A stretch of 64,000 nucleotides of DNA from Myxococcota bacterium (GTDB lineage Bacteria > Myxococcota > B64-G9), in the NCBI GenBank assembly GCA_022710975.1, contig JAKLGA010000017.1, forward strand, positions 124,001-188,000. The letters run 5' to 3'. Positions 42,785 through 55,222 of this stretch are shown here, one piece after another. Positions within the stretch are counted from its first letter, which is position 1, and every line of letters begins with the position of its first letter. The notes beneath the pieces are model-generated. The model was not told where the DNA came from. It saw only the letters and a list, made by a program, of their open reading frames with translations, and searched no databases. A program made the translations under genes and the position numbers.

Positions 42785-42802
42785 GCCCCCCGGTCAGGGC
42801 GG
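42776..42802. terminator. Bidirectional hairpin containing both convergent stop codons
   Basis: CCGCCCTGA (42776-42784) and TCAGGGCGG (42794-42802) form a perfect 9-bp stem with a 9-base loop. The plus-strand TGA stop (42782-42784) and the minus-strand TGA (42794-42796) are the loop-closing pairs. There is no T-run. Confidence 0.5.
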
Positions 42803-45277
42803 GGGCGACTGCAGCAGGATCGCCGCCCAGGGGGTCTGGCCGGCGTTGCGCCAGCCCACGGCCAGATCGATGAGCCCGTCCTGGTTCAGGTCGGCCGCGG
42901 CCACGGCGCGGGGCTCGAGCCCGACCGCGAAGTGCAGCGGGGCCAGGAGCCCGGCCGCCCCCGCGAGCACCACCAGCTCCTGATCGCCCAGCCGCGGAGA
43001 CACCGCCAGGTCCGCCCGGCCGTCGCGGTCGAGATCCGCCGCGGCCAGCGCCAGCACCTCGTCGTCGAGCTCGAGCACGCTCCAGGCGCTGAAGCCGCCC
43101 GCGCCATTCCCCTGCCAGGCGATCAGCCGCGCACCGGCGGCCACCACCACGTCAGGAACGGCGTCCCCGTTCACGTCGCCCACGGCCACCGCGCGGGTGC
43201 CGCCCAGCCCCACCGCCTGACCGAAGCCGCCCAGGCCGTCCCCGAGCAGGACCGCCTGCGGCAGGGCCAGGTCCAGATCGGCGTCCCCGTCGAGGTCGTG
43301 GAGCCTCAGGCCCTGGACGTCCAGCCCCGCGGCCGCCGCCACGCTGGCGGCGTCGGCGAAGTGCGCCGACCCGTGCCCCAGGTGCACCACGACTCCCTGG
43401 GCGGCGCCGACCACCAGGTCCGGGATGCCGTCGCCGTCGAGCAGACCGCAGGCCAGCGCGCGGGGGGTGGTGGCGGTCAGGGTGGCGCCCGCCGGCGAGA
43501 AGCCTCCCAGGCCGTCCCCGAGGTAGTGGCGCGCCCGCGGACCGTTGAGGCCCGCGTCCAGCGCCGTGAGATCCAGGTGGCCGTCGCCGTCGAGATCGCA
43601 CAGCGCGACCGCCACGGGCTGGAAGGCCACGCTGATCGGCAGGTCGGTGAAGCCGCCCAGGCCGTCGCCCAGCAGCACGGCCAGCTTGCCGTCGCCGCTG
43701 GCCACGCCCTGCATGGCGACCACCAGGTCGAGATCGCCGTCGTGGTCGAGGTCCGCGACGGCCATCTCCTCCGGATCGCTGCCGGCGAGCTCCGCCTGGC
43801 GGGCCGGGGCGAAGGCCAAACCCGTCACCCCGTCCGGTGCGCACAGGCCGGCCGAGCAGATCAGGCCCGCGCCGCAGCTCCCGCAGCTCCCGCCGCAGCC
43901 GTCCGGACCGCATTCCAGGCCCGCGCAGCTCGGCTGGCACGTCACGCAGACCCCGTCCAGGCAGCCGTTCGCGCAGACCTGGGCGAGCTCCTGGGCCAGT
44001 CCGCAGGAGTCGAACCACCACACGTCCGCGCCCTGGCAGGCCTGGCTGGCGTGGGGCAGGCAGGCGCACGCGCCGGCGCTGCAGGTGGCGCCGGCCTGAC
44101 AAGCGCCGCAGGTGCCGCCGCAGCCGTCCGGGCCGCACTCCGCGCCGGCGCAGTCCGGCTGGCAACCCAGGCAGGCCCCGTCCAGGCAGCCGTTCGCGCA
44201 GACCTGGGCGAGCTCCTGGGCCAGGCCGCAGGAGTCGAACCACCACAGCTCCGCGCCCTGGCAGGCCTGGCTGGCGTGGGGCAGGCAGGCGCACGCGCCG
44301 GCGCTGCAGGTGGCGCCGGCCTGACAAGCGCCGCAGGAGCCGCCGCAGCCATCCGGGCCGCACGCGAGGCCCGCGCAGTCCGGCTGGCAGCCCAGGCAGG
44401 CTCCGTCCTGGCAGCCGTTCGCGCAAGCCTGGGCCAGCTCCTGGGACAGGCCGCAGGAGTCGAACCACCACAGCTCGGCCCCCTGGCAGGCCTGGCTGGC
44501 GTGGGGCAGGCAGGCGCACGCGCCGGCGCTGCAGGCGGCGCCGGCCTGGCAGGAGCCGCAGGAGCCGCCGCAGCTGTCCGGGCCGCACTCCGCGCCGGCA
44601 CAGTCCGGCTGGCAGCCCAGGCAGGCCCCGTCCTGGCAGCCGCTCGGGCAGACCTGCCCGAGCTCCTGGGGCAGGCCGCAGGAGTCGAACCACCACAACT
44701 CCGCGCCCTGGCAGGCCTGGCTGGCGTGGGGCAGGCAGGCGCACGCGCCGGCGCTGCAGGCGGCGCCGGCCTGGCAGGAGCCGCAGGAGCCGCCGCAGCT
44801 GTCCGGGCCGCACTCCGCGCCGGCACAGTCCGGCTGGCAACCCAGGCAGGCCCCGTCCTGGCAGCCGCTCGGGCATACCTGCCCGAGCTCCTGGGGCAGG
44901 CCGCAGGAGTCGAACCACCACAGCTCCGTACCCTGGCAGGCCTGGCTGGCGCGCGGCAGGCAGGCGCACGCGCCCGCGCTGCAGGCGGCGCCGGCCTGGC
45001 AAGCGCCACAGGATCCACCGCAGCCGTCCGGGCCGCACTCGAGGCCCGCGCAGTCCGGCTGGCAGGCCAGGCAGCTCCCGGCCTGGCAGCCGAACGGGCA
45101 CGGGTTGGCCAGCTCCTCGAGGCTCCCGCAGGAATCGGCCCACCACAGATCCTCGCCCTGGCAGACCTGACTCGCGCGGGGCTGGCAGACGGGCTCCCCG
45201 CCTGAGTCGCAGGCCGCCAGGGTCAGGGCGATCATCCAACCCAGGATGGGGAAGAGGGCTCCCAGTCGTCGAAGCAT
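42794..45277 (-). CDS. Cys-rich repeat lipoprotein with FG-GAP/VCBS calcium repeats
   Basis: An 827-residue lipoprotein (lipobox LTLAAC, Cys about 23). Residues ~31-480 are six near-identical 75-residue Cys-rich repeats (ACQGAELWWFDSCGL, CQPDCAGAECGPDSCGGSC, AGAACSAGACACLP). Residues ~490-820 contain about seven FG-GAP-like units with calcium-binding loops, such as DLDHDGDLDLVVA, DLDGDGHLDLTAL and DLNQDGLIDLAVG, which suggests a beta-propeller. The protein is probably surface-exposed and may bind sugar, protein or metal. It is the last gene of the operon that starts at 54989. GGGAGG precedes the ATG. Confidence 0.85.
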   Translation of the reverse strand: MLRRLGALFPILGWMIALTLAACDSGGEPVCQPRASQVCQGEDLWWADSCGSLEELANPCPFGCQAGSCLACQPDCAGLECGPDGCGGSCGACQAGAACSAGACACLPRASQACQGTELWWFDSCGLPQELGQVCPSGCQDGACLGCQPDCAGAECGPDSCGGSCGSCQAGAACSAGACACLPHASQACQGAELWWFDSCGLPQELGQVCPSGCQDGACLGCQPDCAGAECGPDSCGGSCGSCQAGAACSAGACACLPHASQACQGAELWWFDSCGLSQELAQACANGCQDGACLGCQPDCAGLACGPDGCGGSCGACQAGATCSAGACACLPHASQACQGAELWWFDSCGLAQELAQVCANGCLDGACLGCQPDCAGAECGPDGCGGTCGACQAGATCSAGACACLPHASQACQGADVWWFDSCGLAQELAQVCANGCLDGVCVTCQPSCAGLECGPDGCGGSCGSCGAGLICSAGLCAPDGVTGLAFAPARQAELAGSDPEEMAVADLDHDGDLDLVVAMQGVASGDGKLAVLLGDGLGGFTDLPISVAFQPVAVALCDLDGDGHLDLTALDAGLNGPRARHYLGDGLGGFSPAGATLTATTPRALACGLLDGDGIPDLVVGAAQGVVVHLGHGSAHFADAASVAAAAGLDVQGLRLHDLDGDADLDLALPQAVLLGDGLGGFGQAVGLGGTRAVAVGDVNGDAVPDVVVAAGARLIAWQGNGAGGFSAWSVLELDDEVLALAAADLDRDGRADLAVSPRLGDQELVVLAGAAGLLAPLHFAVGLEPRAVAAADLNQDGLIDLAVGWRNAGQTPWAAILLQSPPP
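43838..45187. repeat. Six tandem 225-bp coding repeats
   Basis: The unit containing GGCCTGGCTGGCG recurs at about 44041, 44266, 44491, 44716, 44941 and 45166, exactly 225 bp apart (75 codons). The four inner units are most alike and the outer two more diverged, as expected for expansion by unequal crossing-over from the centre. All lie within one gene and remain in frame. Confidence 0.9.
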
Positions 45278-45311: not shown

Positions 45312-45761
45312 TCACTGCACGACGAGATTCCGCGCCTGGAGCGGACCGAGCTCCAGGTCCACCCGGTCCCCGGGCGCGAGCCGTCCGCCTCGGTTCGCGA
45401 ACAGGACGAAGTAGGTCCGCCCGGCCTGGGGCGTCCCGCGAGGACGCATGGGGCCGGTGAACGGCGAGCTCTGCACCTGCAGGCGCCCGCCGTCCCGCGG
45501 GTCGATCAGCGCCGCCGCCCGGTCGCGGGCGAACAGGGTCGCGGCCTGGTCCGGGTCGGTGATCCGGAAGCGGACGTCCACCATCTGCCGCCCCGCCGTC
45601 AGGCGCACGGACTCGAGCTGGACGCCGTGGCCCGTCGGCAGGGTCCGGGGGCCCGCCCCGGGCGCGGCGCCCTCCGGCACGCAGGCCGGGAGCGCCAGCG
45701 CCAGGGCCAGGCAGAGCAAGGCGGCGGGCGCGCTGGCCCGCGTCAGCGCACCGGGGACCAT
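45312..45761 (-). CDS. Small lipoprotein of the multicopper-oxidase operon
   Basis: A 149-residue lipoprotein with lipobox ALALPAC (Cys about 27). The mature part has VQLESVRLTAGRQMVDVRFRI near the N-terminus and ends with RLAPGDRVDLELGPLQARNL; it is strand-rich and likely a small beta-sandwich. I do not recognise the family. It overlaps the preceding multicopper-oxidase-like gene by 19 bp and leads by 34 bp to the Cys-rich lipoprotein, so it is part of the same transcript. It could be an accessory or assembly factor for the oxidase-like proteins. Confidence 0.65.
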   Translation of the reverse strand: MVPGALTRASAPAALLCLALALALPACVPEGAAPGAGPRTLPTGHGVQLESVRLTAGRQMVDVRFRITDPDQAATLFARDRAAALIDPRDGGRLQVQSSPFTGPMRPRGTPQAGRTYFVLFANRGGRLAPGDRVDLELGPLQARNLVVQ

Positions 45762-47257
45762 GGATTGCCTCGCGCGACCTCGTGCGCCAGCCAGTCGATC
45801 AGCCGCAGGAAGAAGGCCTGCGGGCTGGTGAGCCGGGAGAGCGACACCCGCAGGACCGCCAGGCGCCGCGCCTGGCTGGGCTCGAGGCCCGGGGTCCCCG
45901 CCGCGGCCAGCGTCGGGCGGAGCGCGGGCTCGAGGCCCCCGGCCCTGGCCAGGCGCCCGCCGTCGGCGACCACCGGGGCCGGGCGGAGGCCCGAGCGCGG
46001 GCCGGCGCTCAGGCCGCCGACCTGGATGTCGACCCGCACGGGGGCCGAGTCCTGCTCGCCGTCGGAGAGCATGTAGCTGAAGCTGTCCAGGCCCTGGAAA
46101 CCGGCCTCGGGCCGGTAGGTGAACGAGCCGTCCAGCGACTGCGCCAGCGTGCCGTGCGCCGGGCTGCTCAGATCCACCGCCATGACCTCGCGCTGGCGGG
46201 GGTAGGCGTCGTTGGCCATCACGCCCGGCGCCGCCACGGACAGGAGCTGGCCGGCCCGGGTGATGTAGGCGTCGGGCACCGCCAGCGGCGCGGCGGCCGG
46301 CGCGGTCACGTCGAGGGACACCAGCATGCCGCCGTTGAGCCCGCTGCCCAGGAACAGGCGGCGGTCGTAGAGCGCCCAGCGGCCGACCTCGAGCACGACC
46401 AACGCGTCGAGGGACTTGGCGGCCGCCAGCAGGGGGGAGACCTCCGGGCGGGCGAAGCGCAGCGGGAAGGCGTCCTCGGCCACGATCGTCAGCAGGTGCC
46501 CGACCAGGGTGGGCACGTGGCTGCGCTGGCCTGCGTTCACCAGGCGCAGCAAGGTGCGCTCGCCGGCCACCGGGGCGTGGTCCAGCGCGGCCGTCGCGGC
46601 GGGGGCCGGGAGGCCGTTGACCAGGAACACGCTGGGCTTGAAGTCCACGGTGGAGGTGACCGCGCCCGCCGGGCCGAAGTCGCCCGCGGCCACGGCCGCG
46701 TTGAGCGCGGGATCGAGCTCGGAGTAGACCAGCAGCGCCTCGTTGTCGTAGAGCAGGCCGGGGTAGGCCTCGCCGACCGCGAAGTCGTGCGTCACCGCGC
46801 CCACCAGGCCCATGGGGAGCTGCACGGCCGGGTGCGAACCGCTGGCGTACAGGTAGGTGCCCGGGCGCAGGGGCTGGAAGGTGTAGGTGCCGGTCGCGCC
46901 CGGCGCCGTCTCGACCTGGAAGGAGCGGATCCGCTCCCGGCCCTGGGCGTCGAGGAAGCGCACCGGCGCGAGCCCGCCGGTGTGTCCGAAGACGACCAGG
47001 GACACGGGCTCGCTGAGCTCGTTGGTCAGGTTGACCACCAGCGTGTCGTCCCCGGGCGGGACGACCAGGCGCGGACCGGGCAGGCTGATCGGCCCGCCGA
47101 CCAGGCCGAAGCCCCAGATCGGCACCACCTGACCGTCGGGCAGCGTGAGCGAGTCCGCCGCCGCCCGCAGGTCGTACTGCACCGCGCTCGCGGGGCCTGC
47201 CCACAGCAGGGACGCGCCGAGGAGCGCCAGGACCAGGATCGTGTGCTGGGTTCTCAT
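45743..47257 (-). CDS. Multicopper-oxidase-like protein with degenerate ligands and a cadherin-like C-terminal domain
   Basis: A 504-residue secreted protein (signal peptide ILVLALLGASLLWAGPASA). Two cupredoxin domains (about 25-175 and 195-325) keep the multicopper-oxidase fold hallmarks (PGPRLVVPPGDDTLVVNLTN, GTYLYASGSHPAVQLPMGLV), but the His-x-His copper motifs are missing: the HWHG motif is absent and HCH is replaced by SGSH. Residues ~325-405 resemble a cadherin/Ig-like domain (VMANDAYPRQREVMAVDLS, GSFTYRPEAGFQGLDSFSY). The protein is probably a structural or binding paralogue of the next two genes upstream. It lies 25 bp after the 47283 gene. Confidence 0.75.
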   Translation of the reverse strand: MRTQHTILVLALLGASLLWAGPASAVQYDLRAAADSLTLPDGQVVPIWGFGLVGGPISLPGPRLVVPPGDDTLVVNLTNELSEPVSLVVFGHTGGLAPVRFLDAQGRERIRSFQVETAPGATGTYTFQPLRPGTYLYASGSHPAVQLPMGLVGAVTHDFAVGEAYPGLLYDNEALLVYSELDPALNAAVAAGDFGPAGAVTSTVDFKPSVFLVNGLPAPAATAALDHAPVAGERTLLRLVNAGQRSHVPTLVGHLLTIVAEDAFPLRFARPEVSPLLAAAKSLDALVVLEVGRWALYDRRLFLGSGLNGGMLVSLDVTAPAAAPLAVPDAYITRAGQLLSVAAPGVMANDAYPRQREVMAVDLSSPAHGTLAQSLDGSFTYRPEAGFQGLDSFSYMLSDGEQDSAPVRVDIQVGGLSAGPRSGLRPAPVVADGGRLARAGGLEPALRPTLAAAGTPGLEPSQARRLAVLRVSLSRLTSPQAFFLRLIDWLAHEVARGNPWSPVR

Positions 47258-47282: not shown

Positions 47283-48587
47283 TCACGGCATCGGGGTGCC
47301 AGGCGCCTCGACCATGAGCATGGTCATCATGCCGCCCGGGAAGACGTCGTTGTTGGTCATCTCGCGCTCGGTGTGGGAGTGCCACATGTGGACGAAGGCG
47401 CCGCCGGGGTTCAGGCCGCCCTCGCCCGGCGGCAGCTCGGCGCCCGCGGACAGGAAGGGGCTGCCGCTCCAGAACCCGCCGTAGGCCATCTCCTGGTCGC
47501 CGGGCATCACGGTGGGTAGCACCTTGCCGTGATCCGGGCAGTACTCCCGGGTGTGGTCGTCGAACTGGTCCCCGTCGTGATCCATGCAGTCGTGGGCGAC
47601 CTCGGTCCCGTAGATGTCCCAGCCCAGCTTCTCTCCGGTCCAGGAGAAGATGGCGTCCGTGGTCGCGCCCGGCACGCTCTGGACGGTGAACACGTCCATG
47701 GCCAGGTCCGCCCCGGCGCCGACCGCGCTGGAGAGCAGCTGCCCGTCCCTGGCGATCACCCGGGCGTGGTTGCCGTGGTGGTGGAAGGGGTGCAGGTCGC
47801 GGCCGGCGCCGATCACCCGCATCAGCAGGCGCTCGCCCGGCATGGTGTGGGTCATGGCGCCGTACGGCTGGGTGGGCAGCCAGGGCACCAGGTCGTCGGC
47901 CATGGTGTCCGGGGCGGCCCGACCGTTGATGAACCAGTAGACCGGCTGGAAGTCGGCCAGGAGCGCGTCGAGGCCGGGGGCCAGGGGCCCCTCGAACAGC
48001 ACCATGTCGTGCACGCGCATGTCCAGCTCGGTCAGCAGGAACAGGTTCTCGCGCTCGTAGGCCGTGTCCGCGGAGGGGTAGGCCTGCGGGCTGAGGGGGT
48101 TGAACCCGGCGGGGCGCACGATCAGCGCCCCCACCAGGCCCATCTCGATCTGCAGATCGGGCCGGCTGCCGGCCTGGTACAGGTAGGTCCCGGCCGCCTC
48201 GGCCACGAAGGTGTAGGTGACCGTCTCGCCCGGCGCGGCCTCCTGCGCCAGCGGGCCGGGCGCGCCGCCCACGGCCTGCACCCCGCGCTGGCCGGGGAAG
48301 GTGAGCGAGGTCGCCACGGGCAGCTCGTTGGTGAGCTGGACGCTGACCGTGGCGCCCTGGGGCACGATCAGGGTCGGGCCGGGGTACTGCGTCAGGGTGC
48401 CGTCGGGCGCGAGGCCCCAGAACAGGAAGGCGCCGCCGTCCGGCGTGCTGAGCACGTCCTCGCGGGCCACCAGCCAGAAGGCGGTGCCCTCCAACCCGGG
48501 GATGGCGGCCTGGGCCGGCGCGACCGCCAGCAGCAGGGCCAGCGCCGCCAGGCCCAGGTGCAAGCGCGACAGGATTCTCGGGTTCAT
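47283..48587 (-). CDS. Multicopper-oxidase-like protein with ligands only in the C-terminal cupredoxin domain
   Basis: A 434-residue secreted protein (signal peptide LGLAALALLLAVAPAQAA). The first cupredoxin domain (~30-170) has lost its His motifs (GTYLYQAGSRPDLQIEMGLV). The second domain keeps two clusters: DLHPFHHHGNHARVIARDG (like the third motif, HPxHxHG) and FVHMWHSHTEREMTNNDVFP followed by GGMM, like the last motif but with Ser in place of the type 1 Cys (HSH for HCH). The N-terminal half therefore cannot bind the trinuclear cluster alone. It lies 10 bp from the 48598 gene, whose N-terminal domain has the complementary motifs. Confidence 0.82.
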   Translation of the reverse strand: MNPRILSRLHLGLAALALLLAVAPAQAAIPGLEGTAFWLVAREDVLSTPDGGAFLFWGLAPDGTLTQYPGPTLIVPQGATVSVQLTNELPVATSLTFPGQRGVQAVGGAPGPLAQEAAPGETVTYTFVAEAAGTYLYQAGSRPDLQIEMGLVGALIVRPAGFNPLSPQAYPSADTAYERENLFLLTELDMRVHDMVLFEGPLAPGLDALLADFQPVYWFINGRAAPDTMADDLVPWLPTQPYGAMTHTMPGERLLMRVIGAGRDLHPFHHHGNHARVIARDGQLLSSAVGAGADLAMDVFTVQSVPGATTDAIFSWTGEKLGWDIYGTEVAHDCMDHDGDQFDDHTREYCPDHGKVLPTVMPGDQEMAYGGFWSGSPFLSAGAELPPGEGGLNPGGAFVHMWHSHTEREMTNNDVFPGGMMTMLMVEAPGTPMP

Positions 48588-48597
48588 GGCCGCCTCC

Positions 48598-49809
48598 TCA
48601 GCGCACGATGATCTCGGCCATCATGCCGCCGAAATCCTCGTCGCCATTGCTCAGATAGCTCAGGTTCGTGGTGAACAGCGGGTAGGTGCCGGGCGGGACC
48701 TGGCTGGTGTCCAGGATCACGTCCGCGGACTCACCGCCGCCCAGGGTGACCGACTGGGTCAGGTAGCTGAGATCCTGACCGGCCGGGCTGCGCAGCAGCC
48801 GCGCGCTCCAGCCCACCACCTTCATGGGCAGGCCGAGCGTGGCCAGCGTGTAGAGCTGGGTCACGCTCAGGTTGGACAGGCGCAGCAGCACGCGCTGGCC
48901 CTGGGTGGCCTCGATCACCGTGCTCACCCGCTGGGACTGCTTGCCGCCGTTCTCGACGGGGGCCGGCAGGGCCCCGGGCCGGGTGGTGTCGGGGTAGCCG
49001 CGACCGTTCAGCATGGCGTAGCGATCGCGCATGGCCGCGAAGGGCAGCGGCTGGACGTTCTCGGAGGCGTCGTGGAAGGCGGGGTCGAACGAGCCCATCT
49101 GCACCGGCACGTCCAGATCGTAGCGGGTCGAGCCGTCCCCGTCGTTGTAGGCGTAGGTGAAGCCCGTGTGGTGGACGAAGCCCTGGAGGTCGGTCCCGTC
49201 CGGGAGGCGGTTCTGGGCCGGCCGCACGTACAGGTTGCCCAGCATGCCCATCTGCATGTGCTCGGTGGCCTCCACGTGGCAGTGGTACATGTACGTGCCC
49301 GGCTGCACGACGTTGTAGTAGTAGGTCAGGCTCGAACCCATGATGATGGAGATGGAGGCGTCGGGGTTGCCGTCGTAGACCGGAGCGGCCTGGGGGAAGC
49401 CGTGCCAGTGCACCGAGTGGGGATCGAAGAGGTCCGGGCGCATGAGCATGCCCACGTTGGTGAGCGTCAGGTAGACCTCGTCGCCCTCGTCGGCCATCAG
49501 GGTGGGGGCGGGGAAGTTGGCCCCCAGCATGCCCGCGTGCATGGCGTGCTCGGGCATGAGCCCGGTCAGGTCGGAGAAACCGAACATGTACATGGGTCGG
49601 CCGTCGGCCATGGTGATGTAGCCGTCGCCGGCCCCCAGGTGGAAGCACCTGGCGTTCGGGTGAGCCGGGTCGATCACGTCGATGACCGCGTCGCCGTTCA
49701 GATCGCCCGGGCACTGCACCTTCACCCCGGCCGTGGCCGGACCCGCCGCCAGGAGCGCGGCCAGGGCCAGGGCTGGAGTCAGCACGTGGAAGAGAGTGGT
49801 TCGCAACAT
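48598..49809 (-). CDS. Multicopper-oxidase-like protein with ligands only in the N-terminal cupredoxin domain
   Basis: A 403-residue secreted protein with a signal peptide (ALALAALLAAGPATAG) and a short dockerin/Ca-binding-like stretch (CPGDLNGDAVIDVIDPAH). The first cupredoxin domain has DPHSVHWHGFPQ and YMYHCHVEATEHMQMGM, the HWHG motif and a Cys-containing His cluster that could form a type 1 site. In the second domain the expected His clusters are replaced (LRLSNLSVTQLYTL; PLFTTNLSYLSNGDEDFGG). I used the ATG at 49809 with GGAGGGA upstream, giving the signal peptide a normal position. It follows the giant gene by 29 bp. Confidence 0.82.
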   Translation of the reverse strand: MLRTTLFHVLTPALALAALLAAGPATAGVKVQCPGDLNGDAVIDVIDPAHPNARCFHLGAGDGYITMADGRPMYMFGFSDLTGLMPEHAMHAGMLGANFPAPTLMADEGDEVYLTLTNVGMLMRPDLFDPHSVHWHGFPQAAPVYDGNPDASISIIMGSSLTYYYNVVQPGTYMYHCHVEATEHMQMGMLGNLYVRPAQNRLPDGTDLQGFVHHTGFTYAYNDGDGSTRYDLDVPVQMGSFDPAFHDASENVQPLPFAAMRDRYAMLNGRGYPDTTRPGALPAPVENGGKQSQRVSTVIEATQGQRVLLRLSNLSVTQLYTLATLGLPMKVVGWSARLLRSPAGQDLSYLTQSVTLGGGESADVILDTSQVPPGTYPLFTTNLSYLSNGDEDFGGMMAEIIVR

Positions 49810-49838: not shown

Positions 49839-52800
49839 TCACAGCGGGCTCTCGTCCGCCCCGATGTCGGGCGCGTAGATGCCGAAGATGTTCATCGAAC
49901 GGCCCTGCCCATCAACGTCGAACAGCAGGCTGGGCAGCTGCACCAGCAGGCCGAAGTCGAGGTAGGCGCGGTTGAGCGCCGCGCTGCCCGACACCAGGTG
50001 GAGATCGGCGAACGGCTCGTTCGTCACCGGGTCCCGCAGGGTCAGCGGTCCGAAGCTCAGGCGGATGAAGTTGCCGCCCTCGTCGAAGGCCGGTGGGGCC
50101 TGGATGCCGGTGGTCACCTCCGGGATCACCAGGTGCCCCCGGGAGCCGTTGACGTACCAGGCCTGGAAGCTCGGGTCGCCGCTCACGTTGCTCGCGTGGT
50201 AGCCGCTCGTGTCGGTGAGCAGGGAGTAGCGCGGATCGAGGCTGGCCGGCACGGCGGTGCCGATCACCGCGAGGTCCCAGTAGGTCGGGGCGTCACCCGC
50301 GAACACGTCCGGCAGCAGGCGGTAGCTGGCCGGCGTGGTGGTGTTGTCGGTCTCGAAGTGCAGCGACAGGTTCTGCCAGATGATGTTGTTCTGCATGAGC
50401 GGGTTGGAGAACTCGCGGTAGGGCAGGGTGCCCGGCCGGGTGCCGAAGGCCGCCCGCAGCGCGGCGCTGTGCGCGTAGCTCACGACGCCAGCCGGCTGCG
50501 CCGCGGAGATGTTGGGATCGCCCAGGCTGAAGGCCGCGCCGGCCGTGGCCGTGCTGATGTTGTGGGCGATGGTGTTGTGCGCGATGCGCACCCGGGCCGC
50601 GTCCTGCAGCGAGAGCCCGCCGCCGGCCATGGCCGCCACGTTGTTGGAGATCAGGTTGTTGGTGAGATTGACGGTGTGCCAGGTGCGCCCCAGCGCGTCC
50701 ACGCCGTTGACCAGCGCCAGGCGGATGGCCCCGCCGTCGCCGGCGCCGGCCGAGTTGCCCAGCAGCACGTTGCGGTCGACGAGCACGTTGCCGGCCCCCT
50801 CGGTCAGGACCTGGCCGATCAGCGGCGGCTGGCCGCCGATGAAGATGCCGCCGCCCGAGGTGGGCGCGCCCTGGTTGAACACCTCGTTGAACACGATCCG
50901 GTTGCGCTCGATCCGCCCGCGCCGGCTGAGCCCCAGGTGGCCGACGCCGCCACCATCGCCGAGGTTGAAGTTGCCGCAGATGAAGTTGTCGGCGATCAGG
51001 TAGTCGTCGGCGCCGGTGTGCATCGATACGCCGGCGCCCGCGCCGCCCTGGCCGCCGTTCAGCGCGATCTGGTTGCGGCGCACCTTGACGAAGCGGCTGG
51101 CGGCGCTCACGTACTCGCCGTCGGCGGTGAGCTGGGGGTGCCCGATGCGCACGCCGCCGCCGAAGAAGCCGGTGTTGTTGGTGATGCGGTTGTTGGCGAT
51201 GTCAAGCTGGCGGGCGTAGCCGTTGACCGTCACGCCGCCGCCGTGATCGGCGCCGGTGATGGTGAAGCCGTCGATGCGCGCGTTGGGCAGCCCCTGCCGC
51301 AGGCCGAAGCCGCCCTGGTTGACCCCGACGTTGCGGCCGAGCACCAGGACGCCCGCGCCCTCCTCGGTGAACAGGGCCTCCGGCTCGAGGCCCGCCAGCA
51401 CCTGCTCCTGGCCCGGCAGGAGCTCGATCAGGCCGTCGGCGATGAGCTGGTCTACCTTCAGCCGCCAGGCGGTCAGCTTCTCGGCCGGCGCCTTGACCGC
51501 GTTGATGATGGTCGAGCCCGCGCCCGCGCCCTGCAGGCGCACCGGCTTCCACATGATCACCATCTCCTCGTAGATCCCCGGCGGCACCAGGATGAGATCG
51601 CCTGGCTTGGCCGCGTCGATGGCCGCCTGGATGGTGCCTCTGCGGGGCACCCGCAGCACGCTGTAGTTGTCGCCGGCCTGGGCCACGGTCACGGTGATGC
51701 CGTGGACGGTGGACTGGCCGTTGTCGCCGCGGGTGACCACCAGGTCGCCCGTGCGGGCGGCCGCGGGGATCACCACCCGGAGGGAGTCGGGCGACCAGAG
51801 GCTCCCGGGCGCGAGCGGGAGCTGCACGCCGCCCAGGGTGACCTGGCCGGGCGAGGCGCCGAAGCCGAAGTCGCGCAGGATCAGGCGCGGCTCAGCCGAG
51901 AGCGGGCCGCCGTACACCGGGTTGGGCACGAACACCGAGCCCTCGGAGGTGATGGTCAGCACCTGCCCGGCCCGCAGGTAGGGCCCGCCGTCGGGTCCGT
52001 CCACCGTGTCCAGGCGGGGGGTGCCGTCCGGGTACTCGCAGTCCACCTGGAGCTTATCCGGCCCGGTGAAGGCCGAGACCGGCAGCACCGGGGTGTCCAG
52101 GTAGGTCGTGGTCCCGGGCATGTACTGGAACGTGTAGCAGAACTGGCTGTAGCGCCGATCGAAGAAGGGGTCCATGACCATGCGGCCCGGCCGGCTCGCG
52201 TCGGGGATCGGGCCCGGGTTGTTCAGGCACACGGTCATCATGCTTGGCGCCACGCCGCTCGGGCTGGGCACGTTGGTGGTGTAGGTGGACGGGACCAGGG
52301 CGTTGTAGGTGCCCCACATGTCCGTGTACACCCGGCTGATCTCGCGCCCGGTCCAGTCGCGGATGGAGACGGGCATCCAGGGCGGGGCGTACTTCTCGCC
52401 GAACTGGGGCGAGGTGGGATCGAACTCGTTGGACAGATCGTCCAGCACGAAGCCGACGATGTGCCCGGCCACCGGGACCTCGGTGAACAGGGCGAAGTCC
52501 GCGGCCGCGTTCTGCCGGTCGCGCAGCGCGACCTGCTTGCGGTCGCACAGGGGGCGCAGCTGGCCGGCGTAGGCGCTCGGCACGCCCGGGAACAGGCTCA
52601 GCTCGTCCGGCACCAGGTGGTCGTCGCCCACGCAGGGCGGCACCAGCAAGGGATCCAGGCTGATCTTGCCCTTGGCGCCCAGCTTGGTGGCCGGGTTGTA
52701 GCTGTCGCCGAAGTCGACGTTCTTGTCCTCCTCCTTGACCAGCTCGTAGGTCGGGCTGCCGTCCGGGCCGCGCGGCAGGGCGGCCTCCACGATGTACACG

Positions 52801-54989
52801 CCGGCGGGCAGGCCGGTGAAGGCGTAGCCGCCGTCGAACACGCCCGGCCGGAGCTGGTTGAAGTTGCGCAGTCCGTCGTAGCAGTCCGTGGGCACGCCCA
52901 GGTGCGTGAACACGGGGCCCACGCAGCCCGAGGGCGCGCTGTCGTCGAAGCTGTCGGTGGTCACCACGTCCAGCGCGTCGCCGAGATCGAACAGCCCGTC
53001 CCCGTTGCGGTCCACGTCCTCGGGCCCGGGCGGCGTGGCCAGGGCGCCGTCGACCGCGCGGAAGCCGAAGGGCGCGTTGTCCACGTCTGCGTAGGTGGGC
53101 AGGCCGTCGCCGTCCACGTCGTCCACCACCCCGTCGCTGGCGTCGAACACCCCGTCGGCGTCCCAGTCGAGGTCCTCGGCGGCGGGGAAGTTCCCCATCG
53201 GCGCCATGTCGCGATCCCCGTCGGCGTACAGGGCCACCTGGACCCTGGGGATGCCAGGCTCCCAGTTCTCGCCCGCGGTCCAGCGGGGATCGTTCTCGGC
53301 GCGGGTGGTGGCGTAGCGCACGATGCCCGAGATGCCGCCGTTCTCCCCGGCGGCGTAGGGCGCCTTGCCGAAGAAGGCCACGTTGGTCTGGCCCAGGAAG
53401 GCCTGGAAGGCCTCGAGCAGCACTGGGCCGGTCTCCGTGCGGTAGGGCAGGCTGGCGCCTGGGTTGGCCGGATCCGCCTGCGGCTGCGGGGAGAGCTGGC
53501 CGCCGAACGACCAGGGATCGGCCGGGTCGATGGCCCCGCCCGCGTCCACCACGAAGGTGCCGCCGGTCGCCTTGAAGCGGGTGAAGTCCACCTCGAGCAC
53601 CAGCCAGTTGAAGAAGGGGAACACCTCGTCGAAGGGCACGAAGCCCTCGAGGTCCGTGGGGAAGGACTGGTAGATGGTGCCGTCCCGGAAGCGGATGTTG
53701 AGAGGCACGTCGGGGATGCCGATCTCGCCCGGGTCCGGGAAGCCGTTCTGGTTGGCGTCCAGGAACACGTGGCCCTCCAGGCGCGCGAACCACTGGAACA
53801 CCGAGACGTCGCCCAGATCGATCGTGCCCGCGCCGTCGGGCACGGTCAGCAGCTTGAAGGCCACGATCTGATCGAGCTGGGTGTCGAAGATCACCAGCTC
53901 GTAGTTCCCGGCGGGCACGTTCGGGATGGCGAACGCGTTGCCGTCCAGGCAGGGCTGGGCGAACACGCCGCGGCCCGTGCCCACGCCCATCTCGTTGAGC
54001 CCCACCCAGCAGGTGGTGTGCGCGAGGGGGGCGCCGAGGAAGAAGCCGACCTCGGGGGGGCGGGCGGTGTGCAGGTTCACCACTCGGCCGGTCAGGGTGG
54101 CCGAACCGTCCAGCACGCTGGTGTCGTTCATCGGCCGCACGAAACCCACGTCCACGTGCCAGCTCGGGGGTCCGAACTCCATGAAGTAGCCGGGCTCGTT
54201 GGACTTGACCCAGGCGTCGATCACCTTGGTGCCCTCGATGGTCGCGGTCTGCTGCCACTGCTGGCCCGCGGGCGGCACGGCCTGGACGCCGTACTTGCCG
54301 GGCGCCAGGTTCTTGATGACCGCCTCGCCGTTCGCGTCCGTGAGGATGACCCCCGTGCCCATCTGGACCACGCTGCCGTCCGCGGCGTAGGTGGTGCCCA
54401 GCGGGTTGCCGAACGCGTCCGTGGAGAGCTGCCCTCCGTTCTGCCCGTAGCGTCCACCCGCGTCCTCCAGCATGATGGTGAAGCCCGCCAGCCCGGTCTC
54501 CGCGGGCAGGTCCGGGATGTTGTTGATCGGCAGGACGTCCTCGTAGACGAACACCGTGATCTGGGCGGTGGGCAGGGGAAGGGGCTGGACCAGCACCGTC
54601 AGCTGCGCCTGGTCGCCGCGCAGGCGGCCGCCGCCGATGGAGAAGCCCGCGGCAGGCAGCACCGACACGTAGTAGTGCTTGGTGGGATCCAGGACCAGTC
54701 CGCTCGGCGGTGTGAGCTCGTCGCCCTTGGCGACCAGGGGCATGTAGCTCTGGTGGAAGCGCACCGCCAGGGTGAGCGGATCGAGGACCCCTGGCTGGAC
54801 GTTGTAGGTCGAGTCCTCCTCGACCAGCCAGCGGTAGGCGGTGACCGGCTCGCCCGCCGGTCCGCTGACCGTGAGCTCGAAGGCCCCCGCCAGCGGCGCG
54901 ACCAGCAGCCCGAACAAGAGAACTCCCCAGAGCTCCAGCCGGGTCGCGTGGGACCCGGTCGGGCGCGGCCGTCCAACTCGGCTATCCAT
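49839..54989 (-). CDS. Giant secreted protein with SdrD B-like, calcium-rich, IPT and parallel beta-helix regions
   Basis: A 1,716-residue protein with a signal peptide (LWGVLLFGLLVAPLAGAF). In order: beta-sandwich repeats (~30-390), an SdrD B-like domain (ARLEGHVFLDANQNGFPDPG, ~400-455), Asp-rich calcium loops (DLDWDADGVFDASDG, DVDRNGDGLFDLGDALDV, ~595-680), an IPT/TIG-like domain (~1010-1095), and from ~1115 to ~1660 a right-handed beta-helix (AAIDAAKPGDLILVPPGIYE, then many N-x-I-x-x-N rungs such as LDIANNRITNNTG). It is likely a long fibrous surface protein. The ATG at 54989 has a perfect AAGGAGGT ribosome binding site. It is the first gene of the operon, and a palindrome lies at 55017-55028. 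Confidence 0.85.
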   Translation of the reverse strand: MDSRVGRPRPTGSHATRLELWGVLLFGLLVAPLAGAFELTVSGPAGEPVTAYRWLVEEDSTYNVQPGVLDPLTLAVRFHQSYMPLVAKGDELTPPSGLVLDPTKHYYVSVLPAAGFSIGGGRLRGDQAQLTVLVQPLPLPTAQITVFVYEDVLPINNIPDLPAETGLAGFTIMLEDAGGRYGQNGGQLSTDAFGNPLGTTYAADGSVVQMGTGVILTDANGEAVIKNLAPGKYGVQAVPPAGQQWQQTATIEGTKVIDAWVKSNEPGYFMEFGPPSWHVDVGFVRPMNDTSVLDGSATLTGRVVNLHTARPPEVGFFLGAPLAHTTCWVGLNEMGVGTGRGVFAQPCLDGNAFAIPNVPAGNYELVIFDTQLDQIVAFKLLTVPDGAGTIDLGDVSVFQWFARLEGHVFLDANQNGFPDPGEIGIPDVPLNIRFRDGTIYQSFPTDLEGFVPFDEVFPFFNWLVLEVDFTRFKATGGTFVVDAGGAIDPADPWSFGGQLSPQPQADPANPGASLPYRTETGPVLLEAFQAFLGQTNVAFFGKAPYAAGENGGISGIVRYATTRAENDPRWTAGENWEPGIPRVQVALYADGDRDMAPMGNFPAAEDLDWDADGVFDASDGVVDDVDGDGLPTYADVDNAPFGFRAVDGALATPPGPEDVDRNGDGLFDLGDALDVVTTDSFDDSAPSGCVGPVFTHLGVPTDCYDGLRNFNQLRPGVFDGGYAFTGLPAGVYIVEAALPRGPDGSPTYELVKEEDKNVDFGDSYNPATKLGAKGKISLDPLLVPPCVGDDHLVPDELSLFPGVPSAYAGQLRPLCDRKQVALRDRQNAAADFALFTEVPVAGHIVGFVLDDLSNEFDPTSPQFGEKYAPPWMPVSIRDWTGREISRVYTDMWGTYNALVPSTYTTNVPSPSGVAPSMMTVCLNNPGPIPDASRPGRMVMDPFFDRRYSQFCYTFQYMPGTTTYLDTPVLPVSAFTGPDKLQVDCEYPDGTPRLDTVDGPDGGPYLRAGQVLTITSEGSVFVPNPVYGGPLSAEPRLILRDFGFGASPGQVTLGGVQLPLAPGSLWSPDSLRVVIPAAARTGDLVVTRGDNGQSTVHGITVTVAQAGDNYSVLRVPRRGTIQAAIDAAKPGDLILVPPGIYEEMVIMWKPVRLQGAGAGSTIINAVKAPAEKLTAWRLKVDQLIADGLIELLPGQEQVLAGLEPEALFTEEGAGVLVLGRNVGVNQGGFGLRQGLPNARIDGFTITGADHGGGVTVNGYARQLDIANNRITNNTGFFGGGVRIGHPQLTADGEYVSAASRFVKVRRNQIALNGGQGGAGAGVSMHTGADDYLIADNFICGNFNLGDGGGVGHLGLSRRGRIERNRIVFNEVFNQGAPTSGGGIFIGGQPPLIGQVLTEGAGNVLVDRNVLLGNSAGAGDGGAIRLALVNGVDALGRTWHTVNLTNNLISNNVAAMAGGGLSLQDAARVRIAHNTIAHNISTATAGAAFSLGDPNISAAQPAGVVSYAHSAALRAAFGTRPGTLPYREFSNPLMQNNIIWQNLSLHFETDNTTTPASYRLLPDVFAGDAPTYWDLAVIGTAVPASLDPRYSLLTDTSGYHASNVSGDPSFQAWYVNGSRGHLVIPEVTTGIQAPPAFDEGGNFIRLSFGPLTLRDPVTNEPFADLHLVSGSAALNRAYLDFGLLVQLPSLLFDVDGQGRSMNIFGIYAPDIGADESPL

Positions 54990-55016
54990 GATAACCTCCT
55001 TCGCTCCTGCGATTGG

Positions 55017-55028
55017 CTGTGTACACAG
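55017..55028. promoter_or_regulatory. 12-bp perfect palindrome upstream of the giant gene (possible operator)
   Basis: CTGTGTACACAG is a perfect palindrome 28-39 bp before the ATG at 54989, upstream of the ribosome binding site. In this G+C-rich genome such an A/T-containing palindrome is unexpected. The rest of the 233-bp gap (54990-55222) has a GGACG-GGCT-CGTCC stem at about 55100 and an A/T-rich stretch with repeated GATGAT at 55141-55172. No convincing -35/-10 pair was seen. Confidence 0.35.
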
Positions 55029-55222
55029 AGCCCTCACGACCCCCCCTGCGGATTCAGGGTAGGATTCCTTCTGCTCCTGTAGTCCATCGAGCGGCGTGGA
55101 CGAGCCCGTCCAATGAACGGTTCAGAGTCGGGCGGCGTGTGATGATGATTACATCGCGGTGATGATCATTTCTCGAGGACGAGGAGCGGAGGACGGCGCG
55201 GAGGCGGGCGAGCCGAGGCGGG

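Follow-up and report, generated by a model that had tools for sequence, protein, structure and literature searches.

Multicopper Oxidases with Two and Six Cupredoxin Domains

Two-domain multicopper oxidases are trimers, with a trinuclear copper centre held by residues of two protomers, and those of type C hold the type-1 (T1) copper in domain 1 (PMC13151041). Six-domain oxidases are considered fusions of three two-domain units, of which one trinuclear site has survived; in the bacterial forms this site is reported to lie between domains 2 and 3, and the T1 copper in domain 2 (PMC3600357).

A further system of interest is the gene cluster Slit_1812-1818 from Sideroxydans lithotrophicus ES-1. 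The passages of the report that deal with it describe two proteins with canonical oxidase motifs, a larger motif-less third protein with adhesin/lyase-like domains, two small proteins, an SCO1 protein, and a cytochrome, and clusters of this type are also reported there from Paraburkholderia, Ralstonia, and Anaeromyxobacter (PMC12016527). Levels of the three ES-1 cupredoxins (Slit_1816-1818) on magnetite exceed those on Fe(II)-citrate, according to the same passages, which contain no mention of half a site in each of the two motif-bearing proteins (PMC12016527). A survey also lists three tandem oxidase genes in ES-1 (PMC5566968).

The locus described here, from a Myxococcota bacterium, carries the ligands expected of one trinuclear centre on two adjacent genes. 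To our knowledge, every characterised multicopper oxidase takes its trinuclear centre from one gene product, acting as a monomer or a homotrimer, and no case is known to us in which two gene products together form such a centre. Limited exact-phrase text searches for heteromeric oxidases among open-licence papers returned no paper.

Copper-Site Ligands Distributed between Two Adjacent Genes

The window (the whole stretch of DNA analysed) comprises 64,000 nt of assembly GCA_022710975.1, contig JAKLGA010000017.1, positions 124,001-188,000. Its minus strand holds a run of genes separated by short gaps or overlapping, in the order giant, A, B, C, and D. The giant protein (49839..55037), of a surface or secreted type, has 1732 residues as its longest frame, with an uncertain start codon, and contains SdrD_B-like and beta-helix regions. 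Gene A (48598..49809) encodes a two-domain cupredoxin of 402 residues with a Sec-type signal peptide, and gene B (47283..48587) another of 434 residues. Gene C (45743..47257) encodes a third two-domain cupredoxin, followed by a Big_9 Ig-like domain, and gene D (45312..45761) a small, lipoprotein-like product, two of whose homologues match no Pfam family. The initial annotation of this DNA dealt with A and B; the paralogue directly downstream, the giant upstream (which is fused to C elsewhere), and the small conserved gene D were absent from it.

Both Pfam and PDB comparison place A and B in the multicopper oxidase family over both halves, and for each the top-matching PDB sequence is that of the two-domain oxidase 3g5w. 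For C, Cu-oxidase_3 matches domain 1, and domain 2 is matched weakly in Pfam. In profile comparison, the alignment of C with B covers domain 1 and the first part of domain 2 (E 5.5e-38), and that of C with A begins late in domain 1 and runs through the rest of domain 2 (E 2.6e-13); these alignments show A, B, and C to be collinear paralogues. Membership of A or B in the copper nitrite reductases was rejected, since their TIGR02376 scores (31.8 and 38.8, respectively) are far under the curated cut-off of 296.

Protein A holds a complete T1 site and four of the eight histidines of a trinuclear centre, all of them in domain 1. The first motif, H131-S-V-H134-W-H136 (49402..49419, minus strand), provides H131 to the T1 copper and H134 and H136 to the trinuclear centre, while in the second, H176-C177-H178-x5-H184-x4-M189 (49243..49284, minus strand), H176 and H178 are trinuclear ligands and C177, H184, and M189 belong to the T1 site. 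Domain 2 of A is dead, with no HxH pair at the places aligned to ligands. Protein B shows the complementary pattern: its domain 1 is dead and reads S-L-T-F-P-G and Y-Q-A-G at the ligand places, and its domain 2 keeps the other four trinuclear histidines, two in H266-P-F-H269-H-H271 (H269 and H271; 47775..47792, minus strand) and two in H403-S-H405, which is preceded by a tryptophan (47373..47381, minus strand). In C, ligands are absent from both domains. The complementary motifs had already been read in the initial annotation, and that reading is correct residue by residue, with both open reading frames on the minus strand at the coordinates given above; it had also assigned the cysteine of the HCH cluster to A alone of the pair, and the live domain of B indeed has no such cysteine; the Cys position is a serine in 84 of 85 B proteins.

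Type-C two-domain oxidases, such as 3g5w, resemble A and B in their two cupredoxin domains and in their HxHxHG, HCH-x5-H, and HxH motifs, and they hold the T1 copper in domain 1, as does A (H131, C177, H184, and M189) and as B and C do not. However, in this class one gene carries both halves of the trinuclear site and there is one kind of subunit (PMC13151041), whereas here the halves belong to two genes and a third paralogue has neither. Judging from these ligands, neither A nor B could form a complete site as a homotrimer.

Conservation of the Split among Distant Relatives

Relatives of B were collected by a scan with one genome per species, of which the best 80 of 317 were kept. Together with the window, two Myxococcota genomes (G017 and G021), Cupriavidus metallidurans, and Paraburkholderia, they yielded 83 A, 85 B, and 56 C proteins from up to 85 loci. 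The relatives span Anaeromyxobacter, other Myxococcales, Acidobacteria, Burkholderiales, Sideroxydans, Gallionellaceae, and Ferrovum, among others. Hosts of the trio include soil and iron-cycling bacteria with only distant kinship. Gene A lies directly before B on every contig that extends far enough, and B is followed by a C match in 56 loci, the B profile used for this search not scoring C in many of the others. In all loci examined, A, B, and C are three separate genes with their own stop codons.

The ligands are invariant throughout this set. In A, the H131/H134/H136 motif is present in all 81 rows that reach it, and H176, C177, H178, H184, and M189 in 83 of 83, while no conserved histidine occupies any of the four trinuclear ligand places of domain 2 in the 83 aligned proteins. 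In B, H266, H269, H271, H403, and H405 are kept in all 85 proteins, and domain 1 mostly reads T-S-I-L-F-P-G and Y-Y-S-G-T. Neither domain 2 of the 83 A proteins nor domain 1 of the 85 B proteins has regained a copper site, and both domains of C are dead in the 56 proteins aligned. Both trinuclear halves are never found in one gene: in all rows, four histidines are provided by domain 1 of A only and four by domain 2 of B only. A further histidine, at position 385 of A (conserved in 82 of 83 proteins, and a tyrosine in A of the window), appears to be the counterpart of a histidine of 3g5w that is not a trinuclear ligand.

As a positive control, these searches also recovered complete two-domain oxidases (L195-L199), in which a single chain carries every motif; the motif scheme therefore does detect complete enzymes. 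The invariance of the ligands across 83 A and 85 B proteins, together with dead domains in which no site has been regained, indicates that the split is not due to chance. The initial annotation had proposed that homologues with all ligands in one protein, and random losses in the other, would speak against its interpretation; the opposite was found, with a split that is invariant in distant bacteria.

This pattern also bears on the possibility that A and B are decaying pseudo-oxidases, non-catalytic and complementary merely as a relic. C shows that ligand loss does occur in the family, and multicopper-like proteins without ligands are known, as stated in published abstracts. Nevertheless, the losses in A and B complement each other exactly and have stayed fixed across distant phyla, and decay would not leave the remaining ligands invariant, so this explanation was rejected as very improbable.

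Co-Occurrence of A and B

Co-occurrence had been suggested as a check in the initial annotation, and its outcome favours a functional pair. Among 195 Myxococcota genomes, A is found in 13 and B in 14, and all 13 are common to both; the sole B without an A (G090) is truncated by the edge of its contig, where it begins at base 46. Similarly, strong matches of A and B occur in exactly the same 6 of 250 genomes of the order to which Glaciimonas (G204) belongs. Genomes with several sets hold equal numbers of both genes, for example five A and five B in Acidobacteria bacterium AB60 (G201, locus L099), a genome with five complete A/B sets. A and B are thus obligate adjacent partners.

Two genomes are informative with respect to C. 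A very divergent version of the system (G083) retains the A-B-C order and the split, and holds a twin-arginine signal on A. In another genome (G153), the third protein consists of two cupredoxin domains and nothing more, which suggests that these domains, and not the modules attached to them in other lineages, are the essential part of C.

A Second Family of Split Pairs

A distinct pair of proteins, of approximately 320-390 residues each and encoded in the order B' then A', was reached through weak matches in 8 loci (L207-L214). In 8 of 8, A' holds a live domain 1 (HT(I/V)HxHG and HCH-x5-H-x4-M) and a dead domain 2, and B' lacks the ligands of domain 1 but has a pair of HxH motifs in domain 2. 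As with A and B, the two profiles match the same genomes, in this case 4 of the 250 of the order of G204. No C-like gene is present in the stretches read around these 8 loci, and a three-part ring is therefore not the sole arrangement compatible with the split.

In six of the eight loci, B' starts with a twin-arginine signal (RRxF), and in the same six loci A' shows no hydrophobic signal in the open frame upstream of its fold. Complexes exported by the Tat pathway carry bound subunits out, as established for hydrogenases. With the signal on B' alone, the simplest reading would be that A' is exported from the cytoplasm bound to B'.

The second family, like the adjacency of A and B, weighs on the alternative that the two partners serve one pathway without sharing a centre, with A being a T1 electron-transfer cupredoxin, or holding a type-2-like copper site as in nitrite reductases, and B a separate histidine-only copper protein. 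This is in keeping with the complete T1 site that A has on its own, and the domain-1 part of A does score weakly against copper nitrite reductase. Nevertheless, it is improbable, because all eight trinuclear histidines are invariant and are divided four to four at exactly the positions lying opposite one another in two-domain oxidases, A and B are obligately adjacent and equal in copy number, and one partner alone carries the Tat signal in the second family.

Proposed Origin and Architecture of a Probable Heteromeric Oxidase

In a maximum-likelihood tree, A, B, and C form one clade each; B and C are sisters (100/99), and A groups with the complete two-domain oxidases (88/87). Deep G083 forms are drawn at the base of each of the three clades, which places the three-way division before the spread of the family. 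A' and B' form separate clades in the same tree, and their grouping with each other is weak, so that the split may have arisen more than once, in the A-B-C trio and in the B'-A' pair.

The ancestor would be a homotrimeric type-C two-domain multicopper oxidase with three trinuclear sites per ring, each lying where domain 1 of a subunit adjoins domain 2 of its neighbour. Gene duplication would have been followed by degeneration of the sites until one was left, with A retaining the T1 copper and the domain-1 half, B the domain-2 half, and C neither. The product is probably a hetero-oligomeric oxidase of the type-C two-domain kind, in which domain 2 of B and domain 1 of A share the trinuclear centre, the only one of the complex, at their contact. 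The heteromeric oxidase put forward in the initial annotation thereby gains strong comparative support: the invariant split, co-occurrence, adjacency, paralogy with the homotrimeric two-domain oxidases, and a second family with the same split all argue for it. It was incomplete in one respect, since C was missed, and C suggests a three-component ring over a simple pair.

The most likely form of such a complex would be a ring in which A, B, and C, at 1:1:1, supply six cupredoxin domains, and the chances that C completes a ring of this ceruloplasmin-like kind are even or slightly better. Its contacts would be domain 2 of B with domain 1 of A, domain 2 of A with domain 1 of C, and domain 2 of C with domain 1 of B, an arrangement that would leave ligands at the first of these interfaces only. 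Ceruloplasmin and MnxG hold six cupredoxin domains and one trinuclear site in one polypeptide instead of three genes, and the ligand count of A, B, and C together fits exactly one trinuclear site. MnxG is not alignable to A or B by PDB sequence search, and the comparison with it is drawn from the published description, in which the bacterial six-domain site between domains 2 and 3 would correspond to a B-A-C order (PMC3600357). The T1 copper differs in place, since domain 2 of the bacterial six-domain forms would be domain 2 of B, whereas here the T1 site is in domain 1 of A.

A simpler composition would be a heteromer of A and B only (such as A2B, AB2, or A2B2), with C acting as a separate surface anchor. 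The second family, with just two genes, provides a precedent, and the fusion of C to the giant in most lineages would suit an anchor. However, C is itself a two-domain paralogue with collinear domains, groups with B as its sister, and is encoded in the same operon, and C of G153 is just two cupredoxin domains; an A-B heteromer without C is accordingly rather unlikely.

If the centre is indeed divided between obligate paralogues, a textbook class of enzymes would gain a new architecture, and the passage from homotrimer to heteromer through complementary losses of active sites would have a natural example; ceruloplasmin came to that outcome by fusion. Neither A nor B expressed alone could then yield an active oxidase, the annotation of either as a complete oxidase would be misleading, and the magnetite-induced Slit_1816-1818 proteins would be testable as one enzyme.

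The Giant Protein, Gene Neighbours, and Possible Function

Nearly the entire giant can be aligned to residues 611-2551 of C from a Sideroxydans metagenome-assembled genome (MAG), at 1005 bits, and other long C proteins align with it as well. C and the giant form one polypeptide in many lineages and are two genes in the window. The giant is separate and upstream of A in the window and in L161 and L162, and elsewhere it is the C-terminal part of C (for instance, L039:11484-19187), which implies a fusion or fission accompanied by a change in gene order. Since they are fused in many lineages, C and the giant are expected to work together; C would carry or recruit this adhesin-like protein, which perhaps holds the enzyme outside the cell. 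OmpB and MofA are also extracellular bacterial oxidases with adhesion-type modules and with SCO1 and cytochrome neighbours, although they differ in being single large proteins (PMC5566968).

Small D-like genes, recognised by eye, follow C in several lineages. The run of the Sideroxydans MAG continues with a LolA-like gene, assigned on a sub-cut-off Pfam match of its L040 homologue, and with SCO1/SenC-like and c-type cytochrome genes, both identified by eye. The content described for Slit_1812-1818 is thus complete in this MAG (L039 and L204, with SCO1 and the cytochrome recognised by eye), whereas the window holds the giant, A, B, C, and D only of that content, and SCO1 was not found in its genome. 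By all signs, the published ES-1 cluster and the A-B-C trio are the same system, matched by order and content as described and not by the ES-1 sequences.

Upstream of the trio, Cupriavidus metallidurans holds secretins and a pseudopilin-type protein, and a Nitrosomonadales MAG a secretin. In two loci (L031:2376-5111 and L040:3062-6837), the genes immediately before the trio encode secretins of the type II/III secretion type, one of which bears a cohesin-like domain, as well as prepilin-like proteins. These proteins possibly constitute a dedicated secretion route for it.

Oxidation of Fe(II) or Mn(II) outside the cell by the trio is plausible, given that the content of the cluster matches the description of the magnetite-linked Slit_1812-1818. 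Many hosts of the trio are not known to be iron oxidisers. Electrons from an extracellular donor, which could be Fe(II), Mn(II), or phenolics, would be taken up by the T1 copper of A and, by way of the HCH bridge, reach O2 where A and B meet. In a broader sense, the trio and the second pair may exemplify a widespread class of obligately heteromeric oxidases whose centre comes from two gene products, maybe with several origins, in which the ring of the trio would be an unfused counterpart of ceruloplasmin on a giant extracellular scaffold for metal oxidation; this general picture is as probable as its opposite.

Structure Modelling, Covariation, and Flanking Genes

In 17 loci (L035, L038, L044, L045, L049, L053, L054, L055, L057, L061, L062, L075, L085, L105, L159, L161, and L162), A and B share a reading frame in which one stop codon separates the two open frames, probably a chance result of their tight spacing. 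AlphaFold was run on A and B joined, taken from loci of this kind, with the stop read as Gly; this is a device to obtain one chain, which implies no claim of read-through and whose linker biases the geometry. Two plasmid-collection rows were left out of an alignment for structure modelling. The confidence rose from pLDDT 56 with 16 rows to pLDDT 79 (pTM 0.64) with 94 rows, and the latter model is confident within most domains and not on their arrangement. The top Foldseek matches of the 94-row model are mostly six-domain proteins (factor V and ceruloplasmin), with MnxG (9bxa) at rank 18, but at a TM of about 0.3 and an rmsd above 11 Å (the first, poorer model of 16 rows gave about 0.4), so that the placement of A relative to B is unreliable. 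A mutual-information analysis of covariation among the domains of the three proteins (A, B, and C) gave nothing interpretable.

The surroundings of the run in the window, also on the minus strand, include at 42794-45277 a putative lipoprotein with Cys-rich repeats (of the type C-x-P-x-C-A-G-x-E-C-G-P-D-G-C-G-G) followed by FG-GAP repeats, and at 57656-61883 genes of the enoyl-CoA hydratase, thiolase, and glutaryl-CoA dehydrogenase types, which form an ordinary acyl-CoA degradation cluster.
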